64,000 nucleotides of DNA, taken from Poseidonibacter antarcticus. Lineage in GTDB: Bacteria; Campylobacterota; Campylobacteria; Campylobacterales; Arcobacteraceae. Where the stretch lies: the NCBI RefSeq assembly GCF_003667345.1, contig NZ_RCWF01000001.1:62001-126000 (forward strand), read 5' to 3'. Position 1 is the stretch's first letter. Each line of letters starts with the position of its first letter. This document shows positions 39,613-51,276 of the stretch, in pieces. The notes beneath the pieces are model-generated. The model was not told the origin of the DNA. It searched no databases and saw only the letters and a list, made by a program, of their open reading frames with translations. The position numbers were made by a program, and so were the translations under genes.

Positions 39613-39990
39613 TTATAAAATCGTCTTGCGTGCTACGTGACAACTTTTATCTATCATAATCAATGACTTTTTCATCTTATCTTGTGAATTATTTAAGTTA
39701 AATGATTCTGCAAATTTCTTAAAATCCAAAGAAATAATAGACTCAGGTAACTCATATTTATTTATGACCTTTTCAATTGTCAATTTTTCACTAGCTGTAA
39801 TAATAAAACATTCAATATTTTTAGAAGATGTTTGTATTGCGTTTAAAAGTTCCTTAGAAAATTCATTTATATTTGGAAGAGTTATAATCATTTGTGCTTC
39901 TTTTTTCACAAGTCCTACTACTTTCTCTTCATTATTTAACATTTTTAATTTCAATATAGGAGAAATAGTATGCTTAAAATTTACACTCAT
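39613..39990 (-). CDS. Thiol-peroxidase-like protein lacking the catalytic cysteine
   Basis: A protein of about 125 residues that follows the Tpx layout: VNFKHTISPILKLKML as the first strands, MIITLPNINEFSKEL where Tpx has its active-site loop, CFIITASEKLTI, and a C-terminal strand. The peroxidatic Cys position of Tpx (in PxxDTPVC) appears to be filled by Asn/Glu/Phe/Ser, so it is probably inactive as a peroxidase. I start at ATG 39990 behind GAGGAAG; the frame extends to 40041. It is coupled to a TetR regulator, so it might serve as a sensor or partner. Homology is judged by eye. Confidence 0.55.
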   Translation of the reverse strand: MSVNFKHTISPILKLKMLNNEEKVVGLVKKEAQMIITLPNINEFSKELLNAIQTSSKNIECFIITASEKLTIEKVINKYELPESIISLDFKKFAESFNLNNSQDKMKKSLIMIDKSCHVARKTIL

Positions 39991-40101
39991 TTGTGGCTTC
40001 CTCAATTTGTATTTATATTTAATCGCGGAATTATAGAACAATCATTCCATAATGTCAATACAAATACTAAATTATGCTAATTATTTAATCCAATTAAGCT
40101 A

Positions 40102-40494
40102 TTATTGACTTAAAAATGTTCTCCAGCTTAAAAGCCCACTTATCTCTTTTGCCTCTTTTAAATAATCGCTCTCACATAAAAACCCATATACACTACTTTC
40201 ATCTTCTAAGTAAACCGTTCCAATACCCAAAGGTGATTGTATTTGTTTCATAAACCTTCCAAAATTTTCAATAGGCATTGACCATATTTCAACTTCAATT
40301 TGGAAATCACACGAACTATCATAAATCATTCCAGGACGAATTGGGTCTTTATTTTCTAAAACAAATAATCTATATCCTTTTTTTGTTTTTGTTTTTCTAA
40401 CAAAATTTGCATTTAAGTCAGCAAGTTGCCAATTTAAAGGCAAATCACTCATATGTGCTCCACAAACTCCTACTAAGATTTCATTTTCATTCAT
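40102..40494 (-). CDS. Allophanate hydrolase C-terminal domain as a separate protein
   Basis: A 130-residue protein matching the C-terminal domain of AtzF-type allophanate hydrolases (VGVCGAHMSDLPLNWQL, GYRLFVLENK, IGTVYLEDESSVYGFLCE). In the fused yeast enzyme this domain is thought to decarboxylate the N-carboxycarbamate intermediate. Here it is its own gene, one base after the amidase gene ends. It is last in the guanidine operon. Confidence 0.85.
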   Translation of the reverse strand: MNENEILVGVCGAHMSDLPLNWQLADLNANFVRKTKTKKGYRLFVLENKDPIRPGMIYDSSCDFQIEVEIWSMPIENFGRFMKQIQSPLGIGTVYLEDESSVYGFLCESDYLKEAKEISGLLSWRTFLSQ

Positions 40495-40495
40495 T

Positions 40496-41824
40496 TTAAA
40501 CTCCTAAATATTTAGAAGAATAAGATATTAACTTCTCTTCTTCAAAATTATCTGCAACAATAGTCACCCCAAAAGGAAGTCCATTTTTTCTAAATCCAGC
40601 AGGTACTGCAATAGCTGATAAATCAAGTAGATTCATAAAATTTGTGTAATATCCAAGATTAGTATTTAAGGCTATTGGGTCTGCATTTACTTCTTTTATT
40701 TTATAAATAGTTCCAGTTGTTGGTGTAAGCATAAAATCATATTTTGCAAATATCTTATCCATAATTTTTCTATTTTTCTTTAGAGTATATTCTGATTCAA
40801 AATAATTAATTGCATCAATTTTATCCCCACCACTTATAATAGCTCTTACAGTTTCATTTATAATCTCAGGAGTTTTAGTAATAGCATCTTTTATAGCAAT
40901 AAATCGTTCAGTTACCCAAGGCCCACTATAAAGTAGATTTGCACTTTCATTAAAAGGTTCATAATCAATTTCTACACTTTTCCCACCAAGAGATTCAAAT
41001 TTTTCCACTGCTTCGTAGAAAAGTTTTTGGGCTTCTTTATCTCCAAAAAATTTCAAATCTTCTTTTTTAGGAATTGCAAATGTAAAATCATTTCTTGCTT
41101 CTTCACAAGAAGATATATACTTTCTACTATAAATATCTTTTTCATCATAAGAATTTGCTACTTTAAAAACTGCTTGCACTTCTTCTAAAGTTTTTGTAAA
41201 TATTGTTACACAATCTAAACTTCTACAAGCAGGAACAACACCACTTGTACTAATCACACCTTTTGTAGCTTTTAGTCCAATAAGATTATTAAAAGCAGCA
41301 GGAACTCTTCCTGAACCTGCTGTATCAGTTCCTAGTGAAAAGCTTGCCATTTCAAGAGCGACACTAACTGCACTTCCTGAGCTTGAACCTCCTGAAATGT
41401 ATTCAGGGTTTATTGAGTTTTTACATTCACCATAAGGACTTCTTGTTCCTACAAGTCCTGTAGCAAATTGGTCTAGGTTTGTTTTTCCAATAGGAATAGC
41501 ACCTGCTTTTATAAGTTCATTTACTACATAAGCAGATTCTTTTGCAATATATTCATACTCTTTACACGCAGCTGTTGTTGGAATATTTATTAAGTCAATA
41601 TTATCTTTAATTGCAAAAGGAATACCATATAGAGGTAAGTCTTTAGGATCTTGATTTTCTAAATTCTTAATATAAGGCTCCAAATCTTTATCACTTAAAG
41701 TATATATCCAAATATTATGGTCTTTTGTTTCTTTTATTTTCTTTTTAATTGATGTTAAAACATCTTCAATACTTATAATCTTATCTATATACTTTTTTCT
41801 TAAAATATTAATATTTAAATTCAT
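40496..41824 (-). CDS. atzF: Allophanate hydrolase, amidase subunit
   Basis: A 442-residue amidase-signature enzyme that splits allophanate. The catalytic triad is visible: K73 (AIKDN), cis-Ser 147 (SGGSSSGSA) and nucleophile S171 (GTDTAGSGRVP). The usual C-terminal domain is encoded separately downstream. It overlaps the carboxylase gene by four bases. In this operon allophanate would come from deimination of carboxyguanidine. Confidence 0.92.
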   Translation of the reverse strand: MNLNINILRKKYIDKIISIEDVLTSIKKKIKETKDHNIWIYTLSDKDLEPYIKNLENQDPKDLPLYGIPFAIKDNIDLINIPTTAACKEYEYIAKESAYVVNELIKAGAIPIGKTNLDQFATGLVGTRSPYGECKNSINPEYISGGSSSGSAVSVALEMASFSLGTDTAGSGRVPAAFNNLIGLKATKGVISTSGVVPACRSLDCVTIFTKTLEEVQAVFKVANSYDEKDIYSRKYISSCEEARNDFTFAIPKKEDLKFFGDKEAQKLFYEAVEKFESLGGKSVEIDYEPFNESANLLYSGPWVTERFIAIKDAITKTPEIINETVRAIISGGDKIDAINYFESEYTLKKNRKIMDKIFAKYDFMLTPTTGTIYKIKEVNADPIALNTNLGYYTNFMNLLDLSAIAVPAGFRKNGLPFGVTIVADNFEEEKLISYSSKYLGV

Positions 41825-44800
41825 TTATTATCCTTTTTTATTACAACTAAAACATCACCACTTTCAATATTATCACCCTCTTTATAAAGAATTTGTGATA
41901 CAAGCCCCGTATATTCACTTTCTATTTCTACTTCCATTTTCATTGATTCTAAAATTACTAAAACTTCACCTTCTTTTACTTTATCACCAACTTTTACTTC
42001 TATTTTCCAGATATTCCCTGACATAATAGACTCTATTGCTTCTTCATCATCATTTAAAATAAGTTCATCTTTATCTTCAACTGCTTCTATCTTTGTATCA
42101 AAACTATCAAGACCTTTTTCTTTCCACATTAATCTTTCATCTTCAAAAGCTTGAACTCTTTTTGTTTGGAAAGTATTTGATTCTTTTTTATTTTCTTTTA
42201 AAAATTGTTTATACTCTTTTAATTTAAATGATTTATCTTCAATTGTTAAAGGAAATTTTCCATATAAAAACTTTTCTCTAATATCTTCTAACTCTTCTGT
42301 TGTTACAGGATAAAACTTCACTTGATCAAAAAATCTTAAAAGCCATGGGTTTTTAAATTCTTTTGTTTGTCTATATGTATTCCACATTTGTAATGTTCTA
42401 CCAAAAAGTTGATAACCTCCTGGTCCTTCCATTCCATATACACACATATAAGCTCCACCAATACCAACAGAGTTTTGTGCTGTCCATGTTCTTGCAGGAT
42501 TGTATTTAGTTGTTACTACTCTATGTGATGGATTAAGAGGCGTGGCAACAGGTGCTCCTAGATAAACATCTCCTAGTCCCATCACTAAATAATCTGCATC
42601 AAATACGATGTTTTTAACTTCATCTTTATTCTCAAGTCCATTAATTCTTCTGATAAAATCAATATTAGATGGACACCAAGGTGCATTTGGTCGTACACCT
42701 TTTTTATATTTGTCTATTGCTTTTTGAATTGAAGGATCATTCCATGAAAGAGGAAGCCAAACAGTTCTTGAATCAACTTCTAAGTTTTCAATATCTTCTA
42801 ATGAATCTACGCTTTGTTTTACTAAGTTTAAAATAGTATCTCTACTTACTACACTTGTATTAAAGTGAATTTGTAAACTTCTAATACCAGGTGTTAAATC
42901 AATAATTCCCTTTAAGTCTTTATCTTCAATTGAACTCATTAAAGCATGAATAAAAAATCTAAGCTCAATATCAAGTTTTAACTCACCTGCTTCTATTAAA
43001 ATGAACTCATTTCCAGCAGCTCTTATAGTTATATCAATATCTAATTCATCATATTTAAAAGTATCAATAATTGGTGTTGCTTTTTGTACATCAAGCTTAT
43101 TTGTAAAGTCACTTAGTTTTGGTAATGCTGTATTTTCTTCTATTGCTTTTTCGCACGCTTTTGTCATTAAATCTGCATTTTCTAAGCTTACTGCTTTAAA
43201 TTTGATTTTATCTCCTGCTTTTAATTGACCTATTTTATATATTTCACACGAAATAATAGTTGCAGGACAAACAAATCCTCCAAGACTTGGACCATCAGGT
43301 CCTAAGATTACAGGCTGATCACCTGTAAAATCTATTGTTCCAAAGGCATATGCATTATCATGAATATTTGAAGGATGAAGTCCAGCTTCTCCTCCATCAT
43401 TTCTAGCCCATTTTGGAGCAGGTCCAATTAGTCTTACACCTGTTCTACTTGAATTAAAGTGTACTTCCCAAGAAGCTTCAAAAAATGCTTCAATATCTTC
43501 ATCTGTGAAAAAGTCTGGACTTCCATGTGGTCCATAAACTACACCAATTTCGTATTCATTAGTTAAACTTGGAATATCATAAGGTACCTTGAAGTCTTGC
43601 TCTTCTTTTGAGGGATAGAAACTTAAAACATCCCCAGCTTTAAGTGCTCGTCCTCCATGACCTCCAAATTTACCTAATGTAAAAGTAGAAGCACTTCCTA
43701 AATATTTTGCTGTATCAAAACCACCTTGTATAGCAAAATATGTTCTATTACCATTTCCAATTACTTTTTTAAATTCTAAAGTATCTCCTAGTTTTACCTT
43801 TATAGCTTGATAACTTTGTATTTCTACGCCATTTAGTTTAGCATTCATATTAGCTCCACCAATTGCTATAATACTATCTTGTCTAAATTTATAAGATGCA
43901 CCTATAAATGTCATTTCTATAAATGAAGCATCTTCTTTATTATTTAAAAGTTTATTTAGAAGTCGTGGTGTTAAGTTATCAATAGCTCCTGATGGTGGAA
44001 TACCTACATTCCAAAGTCCTTGACGAGAAGGATAATCTTGAATAGTTGTTAATGTTCCTGATTTTAATATATCTACTTTATATGGATTGTATTCAAGAGT
44101 ATCTAGTACTTTTGTATAAAAACGTGCTTGAGTAAAAAACTCTTCTTGTACTATTGCACTTAAATATAATAAGTTTGATTCAAGACCATATATTCTACTT
44201 TCATCTAATGCTTTTTGTAATTTTAAAACATTTTCTTCTCTTGTAGGGCTTACTGTAATTAGTTTTAATAAAAGTGGATCATAAAAGGGACTTACTTCAC
44301 ATCCATCTTCTATCCAAGTATCACATCTTGTATTACTTGGTAACTGCACTTTTGTAATAGTTCCTGTACTTGGTTGGAAATTTTTTCCTCCATCTTCTGC
44401 ATAAACTCGGACTTCAATTGCATGACCTTTTGGATTATGTTTATAATTTAATAGCTCTTTATTATCTCCATAAGCTATTTTTATCATCCATTCAACTAAG
44501 TCAACACCGCAAACCTCTTCAGTAATACCGTGTTCAACTTGTAATCTTGTATTAACTTCAAGAAAATAGAAATTATTGGTTTTTGTATCATAAATATATT
44601 CAACTGTTCCTGCACTTTTATAATCAACGGCCTTTGCTAGTTTATATGAAGCTTCAAATAATTGTTCTCTTAGCGCGTCTGAAATATTAGGAGCAGGTGT
44701 TTCTTCAATAACTTTTTGATTTCTTCGCTGTATTGAACAATCTCTCTCACCCAATGTTTTTATATTTCCTAAACCATCACCAAATATTTGAACTTCTATA

Positions 44801-45420
44801 TGTCTTGCTGTTTGGATATATTTTTCTAAAAACACTCCACTATTACTAAAGTTTGCACCTGCTAATTTAATAACACCTTCATAAGCATCAACTAATTCTT
44901 TCTCAGAGAAGCAAAGCTTCATTCCAATTCCACCACCACCTGCTGTACTTTTTAACATTACAGGATAAGTAATTTCTTTTGCTGTTATTTTTGCTTCTTC
45001 AATACTTGAAAGTAATTCACTTCCTTCTAATAATGGTACATCATTATCTTTTGCAATTTGTCTTGCTGTATGTTTTAATCCAAACTCTTCAATATGTTTT
45101 GAGTTTGGACCTATAAATACAATTCCATTATCTTCACAAGCCTGTACAAAATTTACATTTTCACTTAAGAATCCATATCCTGGATGAATTGCATCTACAT
45201 TATATTCTTTACAAATTTTTATAATTTTTTTATAATCAAGATATGTTTCATCAAGTGTTATCCCATCTAAAGATACTGAAATATCTGAATTCATTACAAA
45301 AGATGCATTTTTATCTGCTTGACTATATATTGTCACTGATTCTATGTTCATCTTTTTTAAAGTTTTTATTATTCTGTTTGCTATTTCTGCACGATTAGCA
45401 ATTAAAACTCTTTTAAACAT
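41821..45420 (-). CDS. Biotin-dependent guanidine carboxylase (urea carboxylase family)
   Basis: A 1199-residue enzyme. Order: biotin carboxylase (1-445; [14 protein letters not shown] glycine loop), carboxyltransferase parts of AHS2/AHS1 type (about 455-800), urea-carboxylase-specific region with [20 protein letters not shown] (about 980-1000), and a C-terminal biotinyl domain with [10 protein letters not shown], Lys carrying biotin. Databases call this urea carboxylase. The guanidine-II riboswitch directly upstream, the UAAP genes and the guanidine-I switch at the operon head point to guanidine as the true substrate. AAGGAA precedes the ATG. Confidence 0.92.
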   Translation of the reverse strand: [1199 protein letters not shown]

Positions 45421-45526: not shown

Positions 45527-46147
45527 TTATTTATCCCAAATAATTAATTGAATTGGTGTTGGGTTATATCCATTACAAGGATTGTTAAGTTGTGGACAAT
45601 TTGAAATTAATACTAAAGTATCCATAAGTGCTACCATTTCAACATAATCACCTTTTTTTGATATTCCATCAACAATTGCTAAATGTCCATTTTCTTCAAC
45701 AGGTACATTCATAAAAAAGTTTACATTATTTGTAATATCTTTAGGACTCATTTCTAATTCACCAACTAATGTTAAGTAATTATCTCTACAAGAGTGCATA
45801 TATCTTTTATCTAAACCAAATCTAACAGAGTTACTCTCAGCACTACAATGTCCACCTAAAGTATCGTGATTTCCACAAGTATCTTCTACTATTTCCATTA
45901 AAACATTATCATCACTAGATATTAGTTTAGTTCCTGTTGTAATAAAAATACTACCTTGTTCTCTTATCGTATCTGTTGGACTATATCTATCGTTATAATC
46001 ATTGTTATTATAAAAAAGTGTATCAACTGCTTGACAACCTTCTAAATCAACTATTCTAAATGTTTGACCTTTTTTTACAACACCTGACCATGGAAGACCT
46101 GATAAAAGTTTTTCGTTATAAACTGCATTTTCAATATTTTTTGACAT
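45527..46147 (-). CDS. Carboxyguanidine deiminase subunit (urea amidolyase-associated protein 2)
   Basis: A 206-residue protein of the DUF1989 family, with a UAAP2-type profile: FRIVDLEGCQAVDTLFYNN, SIFITTGTKLISSD and ESNSVRFGLDKRYMHSC. Paired UAAP1/UAAP2 proteins form the carboxyguanidine deiminase CgdAB in guanidine-degrading bacteria. It lies ten bases after the partner gene. C- and H-containing motifs (CGNHDTLGGHCSAE) likely bind metal. A 106-base gap with the second riboswitch follows. Confidence 0.85.
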   Translation of the reverse strand: MSKNIENAVYNEKLLSGLPWSGVVKKGQTFRIVDLEGCQAVDTLFYNNNDYNDRYSPTDTIREQGSIFITTGTKLISSDDNVLMEIVEDTCGNHDTLGGHCSAESNSVRFGLDKRYMHSCRDNYLTLVGELEMSPKDITNNVNFFMNVPVEENGHLAIVDGISKKGDYVEMVALMDTLVLISNCPQLNNPCNGYNPTPIQLIIWDK

Positions 46148-46157
46148 TTTTTAATCC

Positions 46158-46874
46158 TTACGCAAAGTATCTATTTGTATTTTGAAAGCCTCTTTTGGCT
46201 TCATCAGAAAAATCTACATAATCTTCATCTTTAAAATCTATAGAATCAAAGATAGTAATTTCTACATCACTTGGGTTATAAGTACCTTTATCCATTGCAT
46301 GGGGTGTATTTGATAAAACAAGAAGAACATCCATATGTGCAGTTAATTCAATAACATCACCTTTTTTTGCACATCTTGGGTTTAATTCTAATTTTGAACC
46401 CTCTTTAACATCAACTTTTCTAAAAAGGTTTAAAGCTGGAATCATATCTTTTTTACCCATTCCATATTTACCAATTTCAATTAAAAAGTTTTCTCTATCT
46501 GATTTAAAGTATCCATTTCTACAGCTTTCATAAGTTGCATCACCTTCAAAGTTTTCTTTTATAACTCTTGGATTACTAATTCCACCTAAGATATCAAATA
46601 AACCATCTGTAGTATCACCTGTAATTGCAAATAAAACTCTTCCCATTTCAGAAAGTAAAACTTTTTTCTTTCCTAAAAAGGCATTCCATTGTACTTTTAC
46701 TGTATCTGCACTATTAAATCTTTCTGCTACATTTGAAGAGTTATAAAACATAGCACTTAAACTTGCATTATCATCTAATGCTTTTAATTGAATAGTTTGT
46801 CCTCTTTTTATTCTTTTTGACCATTTTACACTTGAATATAAAATTTCATTTAATACTATTTTTTCACTTTTCAT
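46158..46874 (-). CDS. Carboxyguanidine deiminase subunit (urea amidolyase-associated protein 1)
   Basis: A 238-residue DUF1989 protein, paralogous to the gene that follows: GQTIQLKALDDNASLSAMFY, SADTVKVQWNAFLGKKK and DVKEGSKLELNPR. It has the longer UAAP1 form. With UAAP2 it should convert carboxyguanidine to allophanate and ammonia. It overlaps the ABC ATPase gene by one base. Confidence 0.85.
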   Translation of the reverse strand: MKSEKIVLNEILYSSVKWSKRIKRGQTIQLKALDDNASLSAMFYNSSNVAERFNSADTVKVQWNAFLGKKKVLLSEMGRVLFAITGDTTDGLFDILGGISNPRVIKENFEGDATYESCRNGYFKSDRENFLIEIGKYGMGKKDMIPALNLFRKVDVKEGSKLELNPRCAKKGDVIELTAHMDVLLVLSNTPHAMDKGTYNPSDVEITIFDSIDFKDEDYVDFSDEAKRGFQNTNRYFA

Positions 46875-47605
46875 TATTTTTTTCCTTTTTTACTTGCATC
46901 AATATCATTTACGATTGTTGAGCCATATCTATTTGGGTAATCTTTATCAGTTTTAACCTTGTCAAATACTAGTACTCTAGTACCTAATTTAAAAGCTTCA
47001 CTAATATCGTGAGTTACCATTACAACACCAAAATTTAATTTAGAATGAATATCTAAAAGTAAATCATGCATATCTTTACTAATACCTGGATCTAAAGCTC
47101 CAAAAGGTTCATCTAGTAATAATAGTTTTGGTTCTTTTACTAGTGATTGTGCTATTGATAATCTTTGTTTCATTCCACCTGATAATTCGTGTGGATATTT
47201 TTTACTTGCACTATATAAACCAACTGCTTTTAAAATCTCATAAGCTTTTTCATAAGCTTCTTTTTTTGCTTTTCCAAAAAGTTTTCCAAAAAGTTTTGAT
47301 TTTTTAAACTCTAAACCAATAATCACATTATCAATAACATTTAAGTGACTTAATGTTGAATATCGTTGAAAAACAATTCCTCGCTCATCACTTGGTTCTT
47401 TTGGATATTCATTTCCTTCAAATTTTAGTGTACCTTTTGAGGGAGTTTCTACACCTAGTAACATTCTTAAAAATGTAGTTTTACCACATCCAGATGGTCC
47501 TACTAATGCACAAAATTCACCTTCATTCATAGAAAAGTTTAAATTTTCTAGAATAATATCTTCACCATATATTTTCCATATATTTTTAGCTTCTACTAAT
47601 TTCAT
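46874..47605 (-). CDS. ABC transporter ATP-binding protein of the guanidine operon
   Basis: A 243-residue ATPase of the nitrate/taurine-type import family. Walker A is GPSGCGKTTFLR, Q-loop VFQRYSTL, signature ELSGGMKQRLSIAQSL, Walker B LLLDEPFGALD, and the switch His is in MVTHDISEA. It works with the permease two bases upstream and the binding protein at the operon head. The substrate is inferred as guanidine or a related nitrogen compound from the riboswitch. Confidence 0.92.
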   Translation of the reverse strand: MKLVEAKNIWKIYGEDIILENLNFSMNEGEFCALVGPSGCGKTTFLRMLLGVETPSKGTLKFEGNEYPKEPSDERGIVFQRYSTLSHLNVIDNVIIGLEFKKSKLFGKLFGKAKKEAYEKAYEILKAVGLYSASKKYPHELSGGMKQRLSIAQSLVKEPKLLLLDEPFGALDPGISKDMHDLLLDIHSKLNFGVVMVTHDISEAFKLGTRVLVFDKVKTDKDYPNRYGSTIVNDIDASKKGKK

Positions 47606-47607
47606 TA

Positions 47608-48420
47608 TTACTCCTTACCAAACCAAGGGAATAGTTTTTTATTAAATTGTCTTAAAATAAAGTCAATTAAAAATGCTAAAAACGTAATCCATAAAACATA
47701 AGGTAAAATTACATCCATTGCTAGATAACGTCTAACTAAAAATATTCTATAACCTAAACCTTCCGTTGCCGCAATTGCTTCTGCTGAAATTAAAAATATC
47801 CATGCAGTTCCTAGTGTTGTTCTTATCGCATCAATTAATCTTGGTAATATTTGAGGAGTAATTACTCTTATAATGATCTGCCAAGTACTAGCACCTAAAG
47901 TTTGAACTTTAATAATTTGTTCACTAGGTATTTCTGTTACTCTTTGGTAAATTTCTCTTGTAATAATTGGAGAAACTCCGATAATAATTAAAACAACTTT
48001 AGATAGCTCCCCTAAACCAAAAACAATAAATAGAATTGGTAACAAAGCCATGGTAGGAATTAAAGAAAATAGCCAAACTAAAGGAGATAATGTTGAAGTC
48101 ATATAAGGTATTGCACCTATAGATACACCAATAACCAAGCCAATAATTGCACTAATAATTACACCAAAAAAAAGTCTTTTTAAACTCGATATTGTGTCTT
48201 CTAATAATATATATTTACCATTTCTCTTATTTTCTTCAAAAGCCATCTTACTTATTGTATTTACACTCTTCTCGATTGATGGCAAAAGCTTATCATTCGG
48301 ATTCTCTGCTAATCTTTGTGTTGAAGCACTTATATAAACTAGGATTATTATTATAAATGGCAATAATCCTAAAAGTATATTAGTTGACTTTGATGGAACT
48401 TGATTAATCAATCTTTTCAT
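47608..48420 (-). CDS. ABC transporter permease of the guanidine operon
   Basis: A 270-residue permease with about six membrane helices. The cytoplasmic EAA-type loop reads VQTLGASTWQIIIRVITPQ, and the final helices resemble SsuC/TauC proteins. The first periplasmic loop (about 38-70) is unusually long for the family. It lies ten bases after the cysteine hydrolase gene and pairs with the ATPase downstream. Confidence 0.9.
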   Translation of the reverse strand: MKRLINQVPSKSTNILLGLLPFIIIILVYISASTQRLAENPNDKLLPSIEKSVNTISKMAFEENKRNGKYILLEDTISSLKRLFFGVIISAIIGLVIGVSIGAIPYMTSTLSPLVWLFSLIPTMALLPILFIVFGLGELSKVVLIIIGVSPIITREIYQRVTEIPSEQIIKVQTLGASTWQIIIRVITPQILPRLIDAIRTTLGTAWIFLISAEAIAATEGLGYRIFLVRRYLAMDVILPYVLWITFLAFLIDFILRQFNKKLFPWFGKE

Positions 48421-48429
48421 TATTTACTC

Positions 48430-49062
48430 CTAAAATAGTTTTATAAAACTATTTACTGTAGATAGTTGACCCCAAACACCACCTTCTTCTAATATCATTT
48501 GTTCACAAGCTTCTCTTATTTCTGGTTTAAAAGCTGATATTGCATCTTTTAAATAAAAACAGTTATAACCTCTGTCCGTAGCCTCTCGTAAAGTAGTATG
48601 AACACAAACATCAGCAGTAACTCCAGCAATAGCAATATTTTCTATACCTTTATTTTTTAATATTTCATCAATATTTGTAGTTAAAAATGTTCCATAACTA
48701 GACTTATCTAAAACTATTTCATTTTTAAGAGGACTTAATTCATCAATAATATCGTTACCATATTCGCCACGAATCATAAGTCGTCCCATTGGTCCTTGAT
48801 CGCCATACTTTGCTCCAGCATTCTCAGATCTTTGTAATTTTATTTGTGAACAATCGGATAAATCACTTGCATAATTTTCTCTTGTAAATATTATTGTTAA
48901 ACCAAGTTCTCTTGCTTTGTCTAATAGCTTTTTTGTATTTGGAATGATTGGTTTTACCCAATCTAATCCATTACACTTATCAGCATAACCACCTTCAGAA
49001 CAGAAGTCTCTTTGAAAATCAATAAGAACCAATGCAGTTTTTTCTGTACTTAAAGAATCCAT
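48430..49062 (-). CDS. Isochorismatase-family cysteine hydrolase
   Basis: A 210-residue amidohydrolase of the isochorismatase fold. The triad is visible as Asp in LVLIDFQRDF, Lys in VLDKSSYGTF and Cys in GVTADVCVHTTLREATDRG. Family members include biuret, ureidoacrylate and nicotinamide hydrolases. Its position inside the importer genes of a guanidine operon suggests it takes a biuret-like or substituted-urea substrate carried by the same transporter. It lies three bases after the binding-protein gene. Confidence 0.88.
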   Translation of the reverse strand: MDSLSTEKTALVLIDFQRDFCSEGGYADKCNGLDWVKPIIPNTKKLLDKARELGLTIIFTRENYASDLSDCSQIKLQRSENAGAKYGDQGPMGRLMIRGEYGNDIIDELSPLKNEIVLDKSSYGTFLTTNIDEILKNKGIENIAIAGVTADVCVHTTLREATDRGYNCFYLKDAISAFKPEIREACEQMILEEGGVWGQLSTVNSFIKLF

Positions 49063-49065
49063 TTT

Positions 49066-50136
49066 TTAAAGTTTCCCTTCTGCAGCCATTTTTATATATG
49101 TATTATCAAATCTTAGTTTTATGTTATTTTTATCTCCATAAATTTTTCCATTAGGAAAAGAAATCCCAATAAATTCCGCATCAGGTGCACCTTCTCCAAG
49201 TATTCCATGCTCAAAAGAAAATTGACTAACTTTTTTCATAGTATTAATAATTTCTTGGCTTTCTACAAATTTAAGTGCATCTTTTACATTATAAAACATC
49301 ATTGTTGAGTCTAATTGTTCTTGGAAACTTTTTATATTTGTTCCTGAATCTTTAGCCATAAAAGATAGTGCCTCTTTATCTTTATTTTTAACAATTTCCA
49401 TAACTTCAAACCAAGCACCAACTAATGCTTTTCCTAATTCTGGATTATCATTTAATATTTTAGTATGTATAACAATATTATCGATTATTTCTCCAGGAAT
49501 ATTACTTGAATTAAATACTATATTAGCACCGTTAGATTTTTTAATTTCACTTAATTGTGGATTCCATGTAACTAAAGAAGTTACATCATCAGATGAATAC
49601 GCTGCTATAATATCAGCATCAGACGTATTAATAATACTAATATCTCTTTCACTAAGTCCTACTGTATCTAAACCTCTTGCTAATAAATAGTGAGAAACTG
49701 ATAACTCTACAAGGTTAACTGTTTGACCTTTAATATCTTCAAGTTTATTTTTATCTTTTAATACAATTCCATCATTTCCATTTGAAAAATCTTGAGTAAT
49801 TAATATTGTAGAATCAACTCCTCCAGCAGCTGGAATTGTTAAGACATCCATGTTCGTCATTAATGCTGCATCGAATGTACCTGCTGTATATTGATTGATT
49901 TGCTCAATGTAATCATTAACTTGAACTACTTCAATATTAATCCCATATTTTTTTGCCCATTTATTTACTATACCTTTTTGTGCAGCATAAGGTAATGGCA
50001 TATTTCCTACATAAATAGTCCACGCGATTTTAAAATCTTTTTTAGTCTCAGCTTGAAGAGAGCTTGTCGTTAATCCTAATACTAAAACAGACAGTGACAG
50101 TGCTTTGATTAGTTTTTTGAAAGTAGTTGATTTCAT
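49066..50136 (-). CDS. ABC transporter substrate-binding protein (NMT1/TauA-like)
   Basis: A protein of about 356 residues with a signal peptide (KLIKALSLSVLVLGLTT, cleavage near LQA-E). The mature part starts FKIAWTIYVGNMPLPYAAQ, a common opening of nitrate/taurine/thiamine-precursor-like binding proteins. I start at ATG 50136, preceded by AGGAGA; the frame extends to 50169, inside the riboswitch stem. It is the first gene after the guanidine-I riboswitch, so guanidine or a related compound is the probable ligand. Confidence 0.9.
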   Translation of the reverse strand: MKSTTFKKLIKALSLSVLVLGLTTSSLQAETKKDFKIAWTIYVGNMPLPYAAQKGIVNKWAKKYGINIEVVQVNDYIEQINQYTAGTFDAALMTNMDVLTIPAAGGVDSTILITQDFSNGNDGIVLKDKNKLEDIKGQTVNLVELSVSHYLLARGLDTVGLSERDISIINTSDADIIAAYSSDDVTSLVTWNPQLSEIKKSNGANIVFNSSNIPGEIIDNIVIHTKILNDNPELGKALVGAWFEVMEIVKNKDKEALSFMAKDSGTNIKSFQEQLDSTMMFYNVKDALKFVESQEIINTMKKVSQFSFEHGILGEGAPDAEFIGISFPNGKIYGDKNNIKLRFDNTYIKMAAEGKL

Positions 50137-50169
50137 TAGATTTCTCCTAAATAGAATTTTGAAACACAT

Positions 50170-50308
50170 AGAGGTATTAACCTCCCGGGCTTTTATCCCT
50201 CCGTGTAACTCTATTTAAGAGTCGGTTGCTCTTGGACCAGTCATCTTTAAAAGATCGGAACCCTAGCTACCATTGTTAGTTGTTTAAATGAGATATGTTA
50301 ATACCTCT
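50170..50308 (-). promoter_or_regulatory. Guanidine-I (ykkC) riboswitch
   Basis: On the minus strand the aptamer blocks appear in order: GCTAGGGTTCCG (about 50267-50256), ACTGGTCCAAGAG (about 50242-50230), ACGGAGGGATAAAAGCCCGG (about 50204-50185). They match the ykkC consensus closely. A 12-base outer stem is formed by 50297-50308 with 50170-50181. The strand that closes it can also fold locally as GAGGT-TAAT-ACCTC, an obvious switching alternative. It precedes the importer genes of the guanidine operon. Confidence 0.95.
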
Positions 50309-50398: not shown

Positions 50399-51205
50399 CT
50401 ATTTATTCTTAAAATTATTCTCTATTAAAATTTTAAGTTCACTTATTTCAGTTCTAAGTTTTTTAATTTCATCATTTACATGTATTTCATTTAAATGAAC
50501 TTCATCTAGAAGTTCTTGATCCTCTTTTTTATTTAAGATTGCCATTGCATCAACAATAATTGCTACAACTAAATTTATCATTACAAAAGTTACAACAAAA
50601 ATAAAAGGTACAAAGAACAACCACGCATGAGGTGAAACTTCCATTATAGGCCGAACAATTCCCATTGACCAAGATTCTAAAGTCATAATTTGGAATAAAG
50701 TATAAAAAGATTCTCCTAACGTTCCAAACCATTGAGGAAAATTTTGTGAAAATAGTTGAGTAGACATAATCGCAGAAATATAAAAGAATAATGTCATTAA
50801 AGCAATTACAGATAACATACCAGGAATCACACTAACTAAAGCAGAAACAATTTTTTTCATTTGAGGCACTGCTGTAACTATTCTAAATAATCGTAAAACT
50901 CGTAAAATCCTTAATATCTCAAAACCTGAACTAGTTGGAACTAATGAAATTGCAACAACAAAAAAGTCAAATAAACTCCAAGGGTCTTTGAAAAAAGACA
51001 ATCTATGAATATAAATTCTAAGAATAATTTCTATTGTAAATATAGTGATAACAAATTGATTGAAAAAGTTTGTATAGCTTTCAAAACTTGACATAAGTGT
51101 TTTAGAAGTTTCTAATCCCATTGTAATACCATTTAAAATAATTAAATAAATAATAAATTTTGTAAATAGATTACTTTCTATAAAAATTTTAATTTTATTA
51201 AACAT
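50399..51205 (-). CDS. NavAb-like voltage-gated sodium channel
   Basis: A single-domain, six-helix channel subunit of about 268 residues that forms tetramers. It resembles Arcobacter butzleri NavAb over almost its full length. S4 carries Arg at 99, 102, 105 and 108; the selectivity filter TLESWSM falls at 175-181, with the key Glu at 177, exactly NavAb numbering. This supports ATG 51205 (MFNKIK), preceded by GGAGAA, over TTG 51217. A C-terminal coiled coil follows ([15 protein letters not shown]). It stands alone upstream of the guanidine operon leader. Confidence 0.96.
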
Positions 51206-51276
51206 ATATTTCTCCAAAAAATTAGAATGATTGTGATTTATTATATTTATGATTAGATTGGAATAGCTAAAATTAG

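Follow-up and report, generated by a model that had tools for sequence, protein, structure and literature searches.

The minus strand of the 64,000-nucleotide stretch of Poseidonibacter antarcticus DNA that was analysed (hereafter the window) probably carries a guanidine-induced operon for nitrogen assimilation, equipped with a putative translational switch at its head, a candidate Guanidine-II control element in its middle and a putative hydrolase of the guanylurea type among its products. The Guanidine-I riboswitch and the core operon are of a known type and the riboswitch as such is ordinary. What is new is the combination, namely the association of a guanidine-I operon with a candidate class II switch, with an expression platform that appears to sequester the Shine-Dalgarno (SD) sequence, and with a guanylurea-hydrolase-type gene. 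At the level of sequence the aptamer, the gene families, the diagnostic residues, the alternative pairings and the clade and context of the hydrolase are established; the functional reading of these elements is given below in terms of what they predict.

The aptamer (Guanidine-I, i.e. ykkC subtype 1) was recovered as a full-length match to Rfam family RF00442 (model positions 1-107) at 50277-50180 on the minus strand, scoring 90.5 bits where 63 bits is the gathering threshold, with an E-value of 5.6e-15 over the 64-kb window. It is the sole RNA family match at gathering level in the window, and in a permissive scan RF00442 was again far ahead of every other match. The characteristic blocks CUAGGGUUCCG, CUGGUCC.AGAG and ACACGGAGGGAUAAAAGCCCGGGAG are all intact, and the aptamer is predicted to bind guanidinium. 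The original prediction, which held that the ykkC aptamer blocks are nearly letter-perfect on the minus strand and that a guanidine-I riboswitch heads a nitrogen operon, is borne out by the Rfam scan it had itself set as a check, as well as by the guanidine carboxylase operon found downstream. The ykkC subtype 2 (PRPP/ppGpp) was considered and rejected, given the fit to the guanidine-I model, the undamaged core and the association with guanidine genes. The remark that it is unusual to see such a regulon described in the Arcobacter group is fair for the open-access literature. Biologically the aptamer is not rare, being present in 11 of the 104 genomes of the family and in 24 of the 397 genomes of the phylum.

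The limits originally assigned to the element coincide exactly with the outer ends (50308 and 50170) of a perfect 11-bp inverted repeat (AGAGGTATTAA / TTAATACCTCT) that flanks the aptamer; the repeat itself went unmentioned at the time, and neither the expression platform nor the Guanidine-II element nor the unusual hydrolase gene was noticed. Elsewhere in the genome a second Guanidine-I copy (G000:C2:93584-93684, 93.4 bits) heads an orphan gene for a PotD-like substrate-binding protein (L015 12508-13539) with no adjacent permease, a 76% paralogue of which is located within a complete PotABCD-like operon (contig C3, 36029-37054). Two neighbouring SMR exporter genes of the Gdx/EmrE type (G000:C14:49596-50212) have no guanidine-I riboswitch adjoining them. 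Directly upstream of the leader, on the same strand, lies a gene for a single-domain voltage-gated-type ion channel (50399-51217; PF00520).

The operon downstream of the riboswitch consists of nine genes, all on the minus strand and extending from 50136 to 40102. In order, these encode a guanidine ABC transporter substrate-binding protein (SBP; 49066-50136; TIGR03427, 519 bits against a cut-off of 334), an isochorismatase-like cysteine hydrolase (48430-49062), an ABC transporter permease (47608-48420; PF00528) and ATPase (46874-47605; PF00005), the carboxyguanidine deiminase subunits CgdA (UAAP1; 46158-46874; TIGR03425, 247 bits, cut-off 206) and CgdB (UAAP2; 45527-46147; TIGR03424, 328 bits, cut-off 285), guanidine carboxylase (41821-45420; TIGR02712, 1731 bits) and allophanate hydrolase. 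The latter is divided over separate genes for the amidase domain (40496-41824; PRK08186, 603 bits) and for the C-terminal domain (40102-40494; PF21986), where the last gene has its own SD and marks the end of the operon. The same operon, including the permease and the ATPase, follows the riboswitch in 10 other genomes of the family (in one of which the contig ends after the carboxylase), and always without the isochorismatase-like gene. The split of the allophanate hydrolase (junction 40494-40498) is common to all the relatives' operons of which the end is available and is therefore not a frameshift. The operon had been put at ten genes, a count that has to be lowered: the open reading frame at 39613-40041 (TTG start, 142 amino acids), for which no family match was found, was rejected as a tenth member as it has its own promoter consensus upstream and is unmatched in the neighbourhoods of the relatives. 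This consensus (sigma70-type, 12/12) is a perfect TTGACA-17-TATAAT at 40058-40030 on the minus strand, located just past the operon and ahead of both the open reading frame and a TetR-type regulator gene; the TetR gene likewise had no match in the relatives' neighbourhoods.

The re-labelling of the 'urea' genes of this operon as guanidine genes, as proposed in the original prediction, is supported on grounds that are independent of the riboswitch. The carboxylase has Asp (D697 and D951) at the positions corresponding to 1330 and 1584 of the K. lactis enzyme, a pair that separates guanidine carboxylase from urea carboxylase, the urea enzyme having Asn at position 1330 (PMC11410670). Both Asp motifs are also present in the carboxylases of all ten relatives. 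Furthermore, CgdA and CgdB both score above their family cut-offs, RF00442 and CgdB are found in the identical 11 of the 104 family genomes, and a separate urease is encoded elsewhere in the genome. The relabelling thus has support beyond the riboswitch, and the carboxylase is predicted to prefer guanidine over urea. The opposite reading, in which the operon degrades urea via urea carboxylase and allophanate hydrolase and the riboswitch is a side sensor, agrees with the labels in use, as NCBIfam names the carboxylase a urea carboxylase and the SBP putatively urea-binding, and as such genes of A. butzleri 7h1h were annotated as urea carboxylase/allophanate hydrolase (PMC3751612); with Asp at the 1330 position in 11/11 operons, CgdAB present and a urease in the genome, we nevertheless hold it to be very improbable indeed. 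The guanidine assignment sets right the label urea carboxylase, a common misannotation among the relatives of Arcobacter. In the route proposed, guanidine would be imported and carboxylated, after which the carboxyguanidine would be deiminated to allophanate and the allophanate hydrolysed to ammonia and CO2.

The expression platform of the Guanidine-I element has the appearance of an ON switch that acts on translation. The 5' strand of aptamer helix P2, its loop and its 3' strand (CUCUUAAAUAGAGUU, 50221-50207) form a 15-bp complement to the SD region (AAUUCUAUUUAGGAG, 50158-50144, with the SD AGGAG at 50148-50144), which is thereby predicted to be sequestered when ligand is absent, and the fold of the full leader buries the SD (z -3.1). 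The P2/SD duplex has a computed energy of -20.1 kcal/mol, against -6.9 +/- 2.1 kcal/mol for shuffled sequences, 1 in 5000 of which was as strong. The complement is seen in 14/14 leaders of the family, with 98.6% of the cells paired as compared to 31-57% when the strands are slid. In other families of the order the P2 loop varies (from UAAAUA to UGAGUA, UGAAUA and GUAAGCG) and the SD side changes along with it, yielding 7 covarying cells against a shuffled mean of 2.1 (2/2000). Since the aptamer places no constraint on the P2 loop, this compensation is evidence that the alternative pairing is under selection. The CUC form of the pairing is lacking in four further Campylobacterota copies (L136-L139).

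When growing transcripts were folded, the aptamer was found together with a P0-like closing helix until about position 50150, and the SD-paired fold thereafter. This helix is made up of the arms of the inverted repeat, AGAGGUAUUAA (50308-50298) and UUAAUACCUCU (50180-50170), of which the first may also form a leader hairpin and the second has the 3' GGAGGU of the aptamer as an alternative partner. The helix is present in the pre-SD fold of 14/14 leaders, is mismatched at one pair in 4 of them, and shows covariation in the form of 8 cells in which both sides have changed (0/500 shuffles reach the score). The full switch to the SD-paired fold was obtained in 11 of the 14 leaders and was incomplete in the other three. 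The SD was computed to be about 35-54% free with the aptamer enforced, versus 0-1% without. The energy gap between the two folds is about 16 kcal/mol, which exceeds any plausible binding energy of the ligand, so that switching would have to be kinetic. We infer the guanidine response, the direction of switching and the co-transcriptional order as follows: the nascent leader would fold into the aptamer, closed by the outer helix, before the SD is made; with guanidinium bound this fold would persist, the SD would be free and the importer genes would be translated; and without guanidinium the P2 strand and loop would pair with the emerging SD region and block translation.

In its full-length aptamer, intact core and downstream guanidine carboxylase operon the element resembles the published Guanidine-I class. 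It differs in that the class is usually a transcriptional ON switch (PMC12186494), whereas the platform found here is a candidate for translational control, and in that P0 is described as a feature of the PRPP relative that guanidine-I does not have (PMC6031431), whereas a P0-like helix closes the aptamer here. The general behaviour of the class, together with a weak terminator-like match at 50185-50170, could be taken to mean that this riboswitch, like others, acts on transcription, be it by intrinsic or by Rho-dependent termination, and that the SD pairing is incidental. We consider this rather unlikely in view of the strength and the covariation of the SD complement; in addition, the hairpin at 50185-50170 lacks a U-run, in the window and in the relatives alike, on which ground an intrinsic terminator, though not a Rho-dependent effect, was rejected. 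Sequestration of the SD is thus the preferred reading, and it offers a translational guanidine-I switch that can be put to the test.

Two ACGR hairpins are the hallmark of the Guanidine-II (mini-ykkC) riboswitch, and a pair of this kind (UUAUAAG-ACGA-CUUAUAA and GGG-ACGG-CCC) is found at 45489-45445 on the minus strand, in the 106-nt gap upstream of the carboxylase gene. With the RF01068 model the window element reaches 18.9 bits and its counterparts in relatives 30.5, 30.1 and 22.6 bits; as none of these attains the cut-off of 32, we refer to the element as a candidate only. The two hairpins occur together in 9 of the 11 operons (two relatives are without), and 3 of 20000 shuffled versions of the gap have such a pair, while compensatory changes in P1 are modest (20/500 shuffles). 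The element would put the second half of the operon under separate guanidine control, and guanidine use in Arcobacter relatives is then probably subject to riboswitch control at two points. The same layout, with class I at the operon head and class II before the carboxylase gene, has been described for Raoultella, Klebsiella and Vreelandella (PMC12186494, PMC12508155). The present case differs from these in that it concerns Campylobacterota, in that the class II element is AU-rich and below the Rfam cut-off, and in that the operon has a split allophanate hydrolase and an extra hydrolase gene.

The product of this extra gene, 48430-49062, appears to be capable of cleaving guanylurea. Both the sequence and the structural model (pLDDT 94; best PDB match the biuret hydrolase BiuH, TM 0.94) have the isochorismatase-like fold and the Asp/Lys/Cys triad, and an ungapped alignment around the active site shows Asp36, Lys142 and Cys175 of BiuH kept as D15, K120 and C153. 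The fold and the catalytic triad are thereby the same as those of BiuH, whereas Lys145 and Gln215 of that enzyme are replaced by Tyr123 and Glu193. In BiuH both residues contact biuret, the Gln215Glu variant has a kcat/KM of 115 instead of about 150,000 (an approximately 1300-fold loss for biuret), and variants at Lys145 have virtually no activity (PMC5806882). A negatively charged Glu in the place of Gln and the loss of the positively charged Lys would suit a cationic substrate. Among the closest relatives annotated on plasmids is the guanylurea hydrolase of P. mendocina MET (pMET-2; 47% identity), which has the same Tyr and Glu and for which the assayed activity is 11 umol/min/mg with guanylurea and 0.4 nmol/min/mg with biuret.

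Among 120 homologues the residue pair is either Tyr/Glu or Lys/Gln and never mixed, and in a tree calculated without the two signature sites a single branch sets the Tyr/Glu sequences apart from the others (SH-aLRT 93), which puts the window protein in one clade with the assayed guanylurea hydrolase, be it in a quick tree in which it has a long branch and which does not include GuuH of strain GU. The distinction extends to the genome context. In reference genomes a Guanidine-I element lies within the stretch taken for each locus at 21 of 31 Tyr/Glu loci versus 0 of 49 Lys/Gln loci (Fisher 4e-12, uncorrected for relatedness and with the model R1 built partly from Tyr/Glu loci). The gene order also resembles that of pMET-2, as the hydrolase is positioned between SBP and permease in both, i.e. 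SBP-(deaminase)-hydrolase-permease-ATPase on pMET-2 and SBP-hydrolase-permease-ATPase here. The likeness to the pMET-2 system thus covers the isochorismatase-like fold, the Tyr/Glu pocket residues and the adjacent ABC importer genes; the difference is that the pMET-2 gene is plasmid-borne and adjoins a LysR gene, the carboxylase genes being encoded apart from it on the chromosome, whereas here the gene is part of a carboxylase operon under guanidine-I control.

The possibility that the extra enzyme is a biuret hydrolase, which would supply allophanate to the last step of the operon and have no relation to guanidine, derives from BiuH being the best NCBIfam model (NF050097) as well as the closest solved fold. 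The score, however, is 214.6 bits against a cut-off of 370, both contact residues are replaced in the way seen in the assayed guanylurea hydrolase, and the tree and the gene context point away from biuret, which makes this quite improbable; the name biuret hydrolase was rejected in view of the score and the pocket residues. A more serious contender, although still on the unlikely side, is that the substrate is another N-acylguanidine, for instance a guanidine with an oxalyl or carboxy substituent that is formed when creatinine is broken down. Many Tyr/Glu genes do occur under guanidine-I control in clusters that also contain creatininase-family, desaturase-like and SDR genes, but none of these partner genes is present in the window operon, and the sole assayed member encountered acts on guanylurea. 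With guanylurea as the predicted substrate, the enzyme would most likely remove ammonia from it to give guanidine or carboxyguanidine, both of which would enter the same pathway, and guanidine so formed would induce the operon.

The hydrolase gene was found in no other of the 397 phylum genomes searched; the family search returned one genome with a 35% relative, and a single-sequence search of the genome contigs with the hydrolase gave no confirmed relative. Its nearest relative in sequence (58-59%) is encoded in a metagenome-assembled genome of Magasanikbacteria (Patescibacteria; L036 7953-8633), in a neighbourhood without guanidine genes or riboswitch. The SBP of the operon is an outlier among those of the relatives (56-62% identity, versus 63-97% among the others), which is compatible with an altered imported substrate. 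Its identity to the pMET-2 SBP is only 22%, on which ground borrowing of the importer SBP from pMET-2-like systems was rejected.

Guanylurea is the main breakdown product in wastewater of the diabetes drug metformin. The Tyr/Glu versus Lys/Gln pairs provide a two-residue signature by which guanylurea-type and biuret-type hydrolases can be separated in sequence data, and which is useful for tracking degraders of this residue in wastewater. As a tentative generalization, which we rate as somewhat less than probable, the Tyr/Glu clade could represent a distinct family of acylguanidine hydrolases that is widely wired to guanidine riboswitches and extends the regulon upstream, to guanylurea here and possibly to creatinine-derived compounds elsewhere, where its members cluster with creatininase-like and desaturase-like enzymes, while guanidine-I elements of the Campylobacterota would employ P0 and SD sequestration and no terminator.

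Guanidine-I elements also head a number of proteobacterial clusters (L060, L062, L075, L080, L087, L094, L055, L059 and L079), the genes of which encode, though not all of them everywhere, an SBP, desaturase-like, SDR, EamA, creatininase-family and lactonase-like proteins, a Tyr/Glu hydrolase, a permease and an ATPase. Clusters of the L060 type possibly serve the catabolism of creatinine or acylguanidines; no paper that joins riboswitch, guanidine and creatininase was found in the open-access literature. Finally, two of the relatives (L018 and L023) have a 2OG-Fe(II) oxygenase gene and a gene of about 315 amino acids beside a second riboswitch, a pair that resembles the published MgdH/MgdL methylguanidine module (coordinates of the extra guanidine-linked genes: L018 13545-15538 and 8011-8793; L023 4225-6276), and in one of the two an AHL-lactonase-like gene is located within the guanidine operon.
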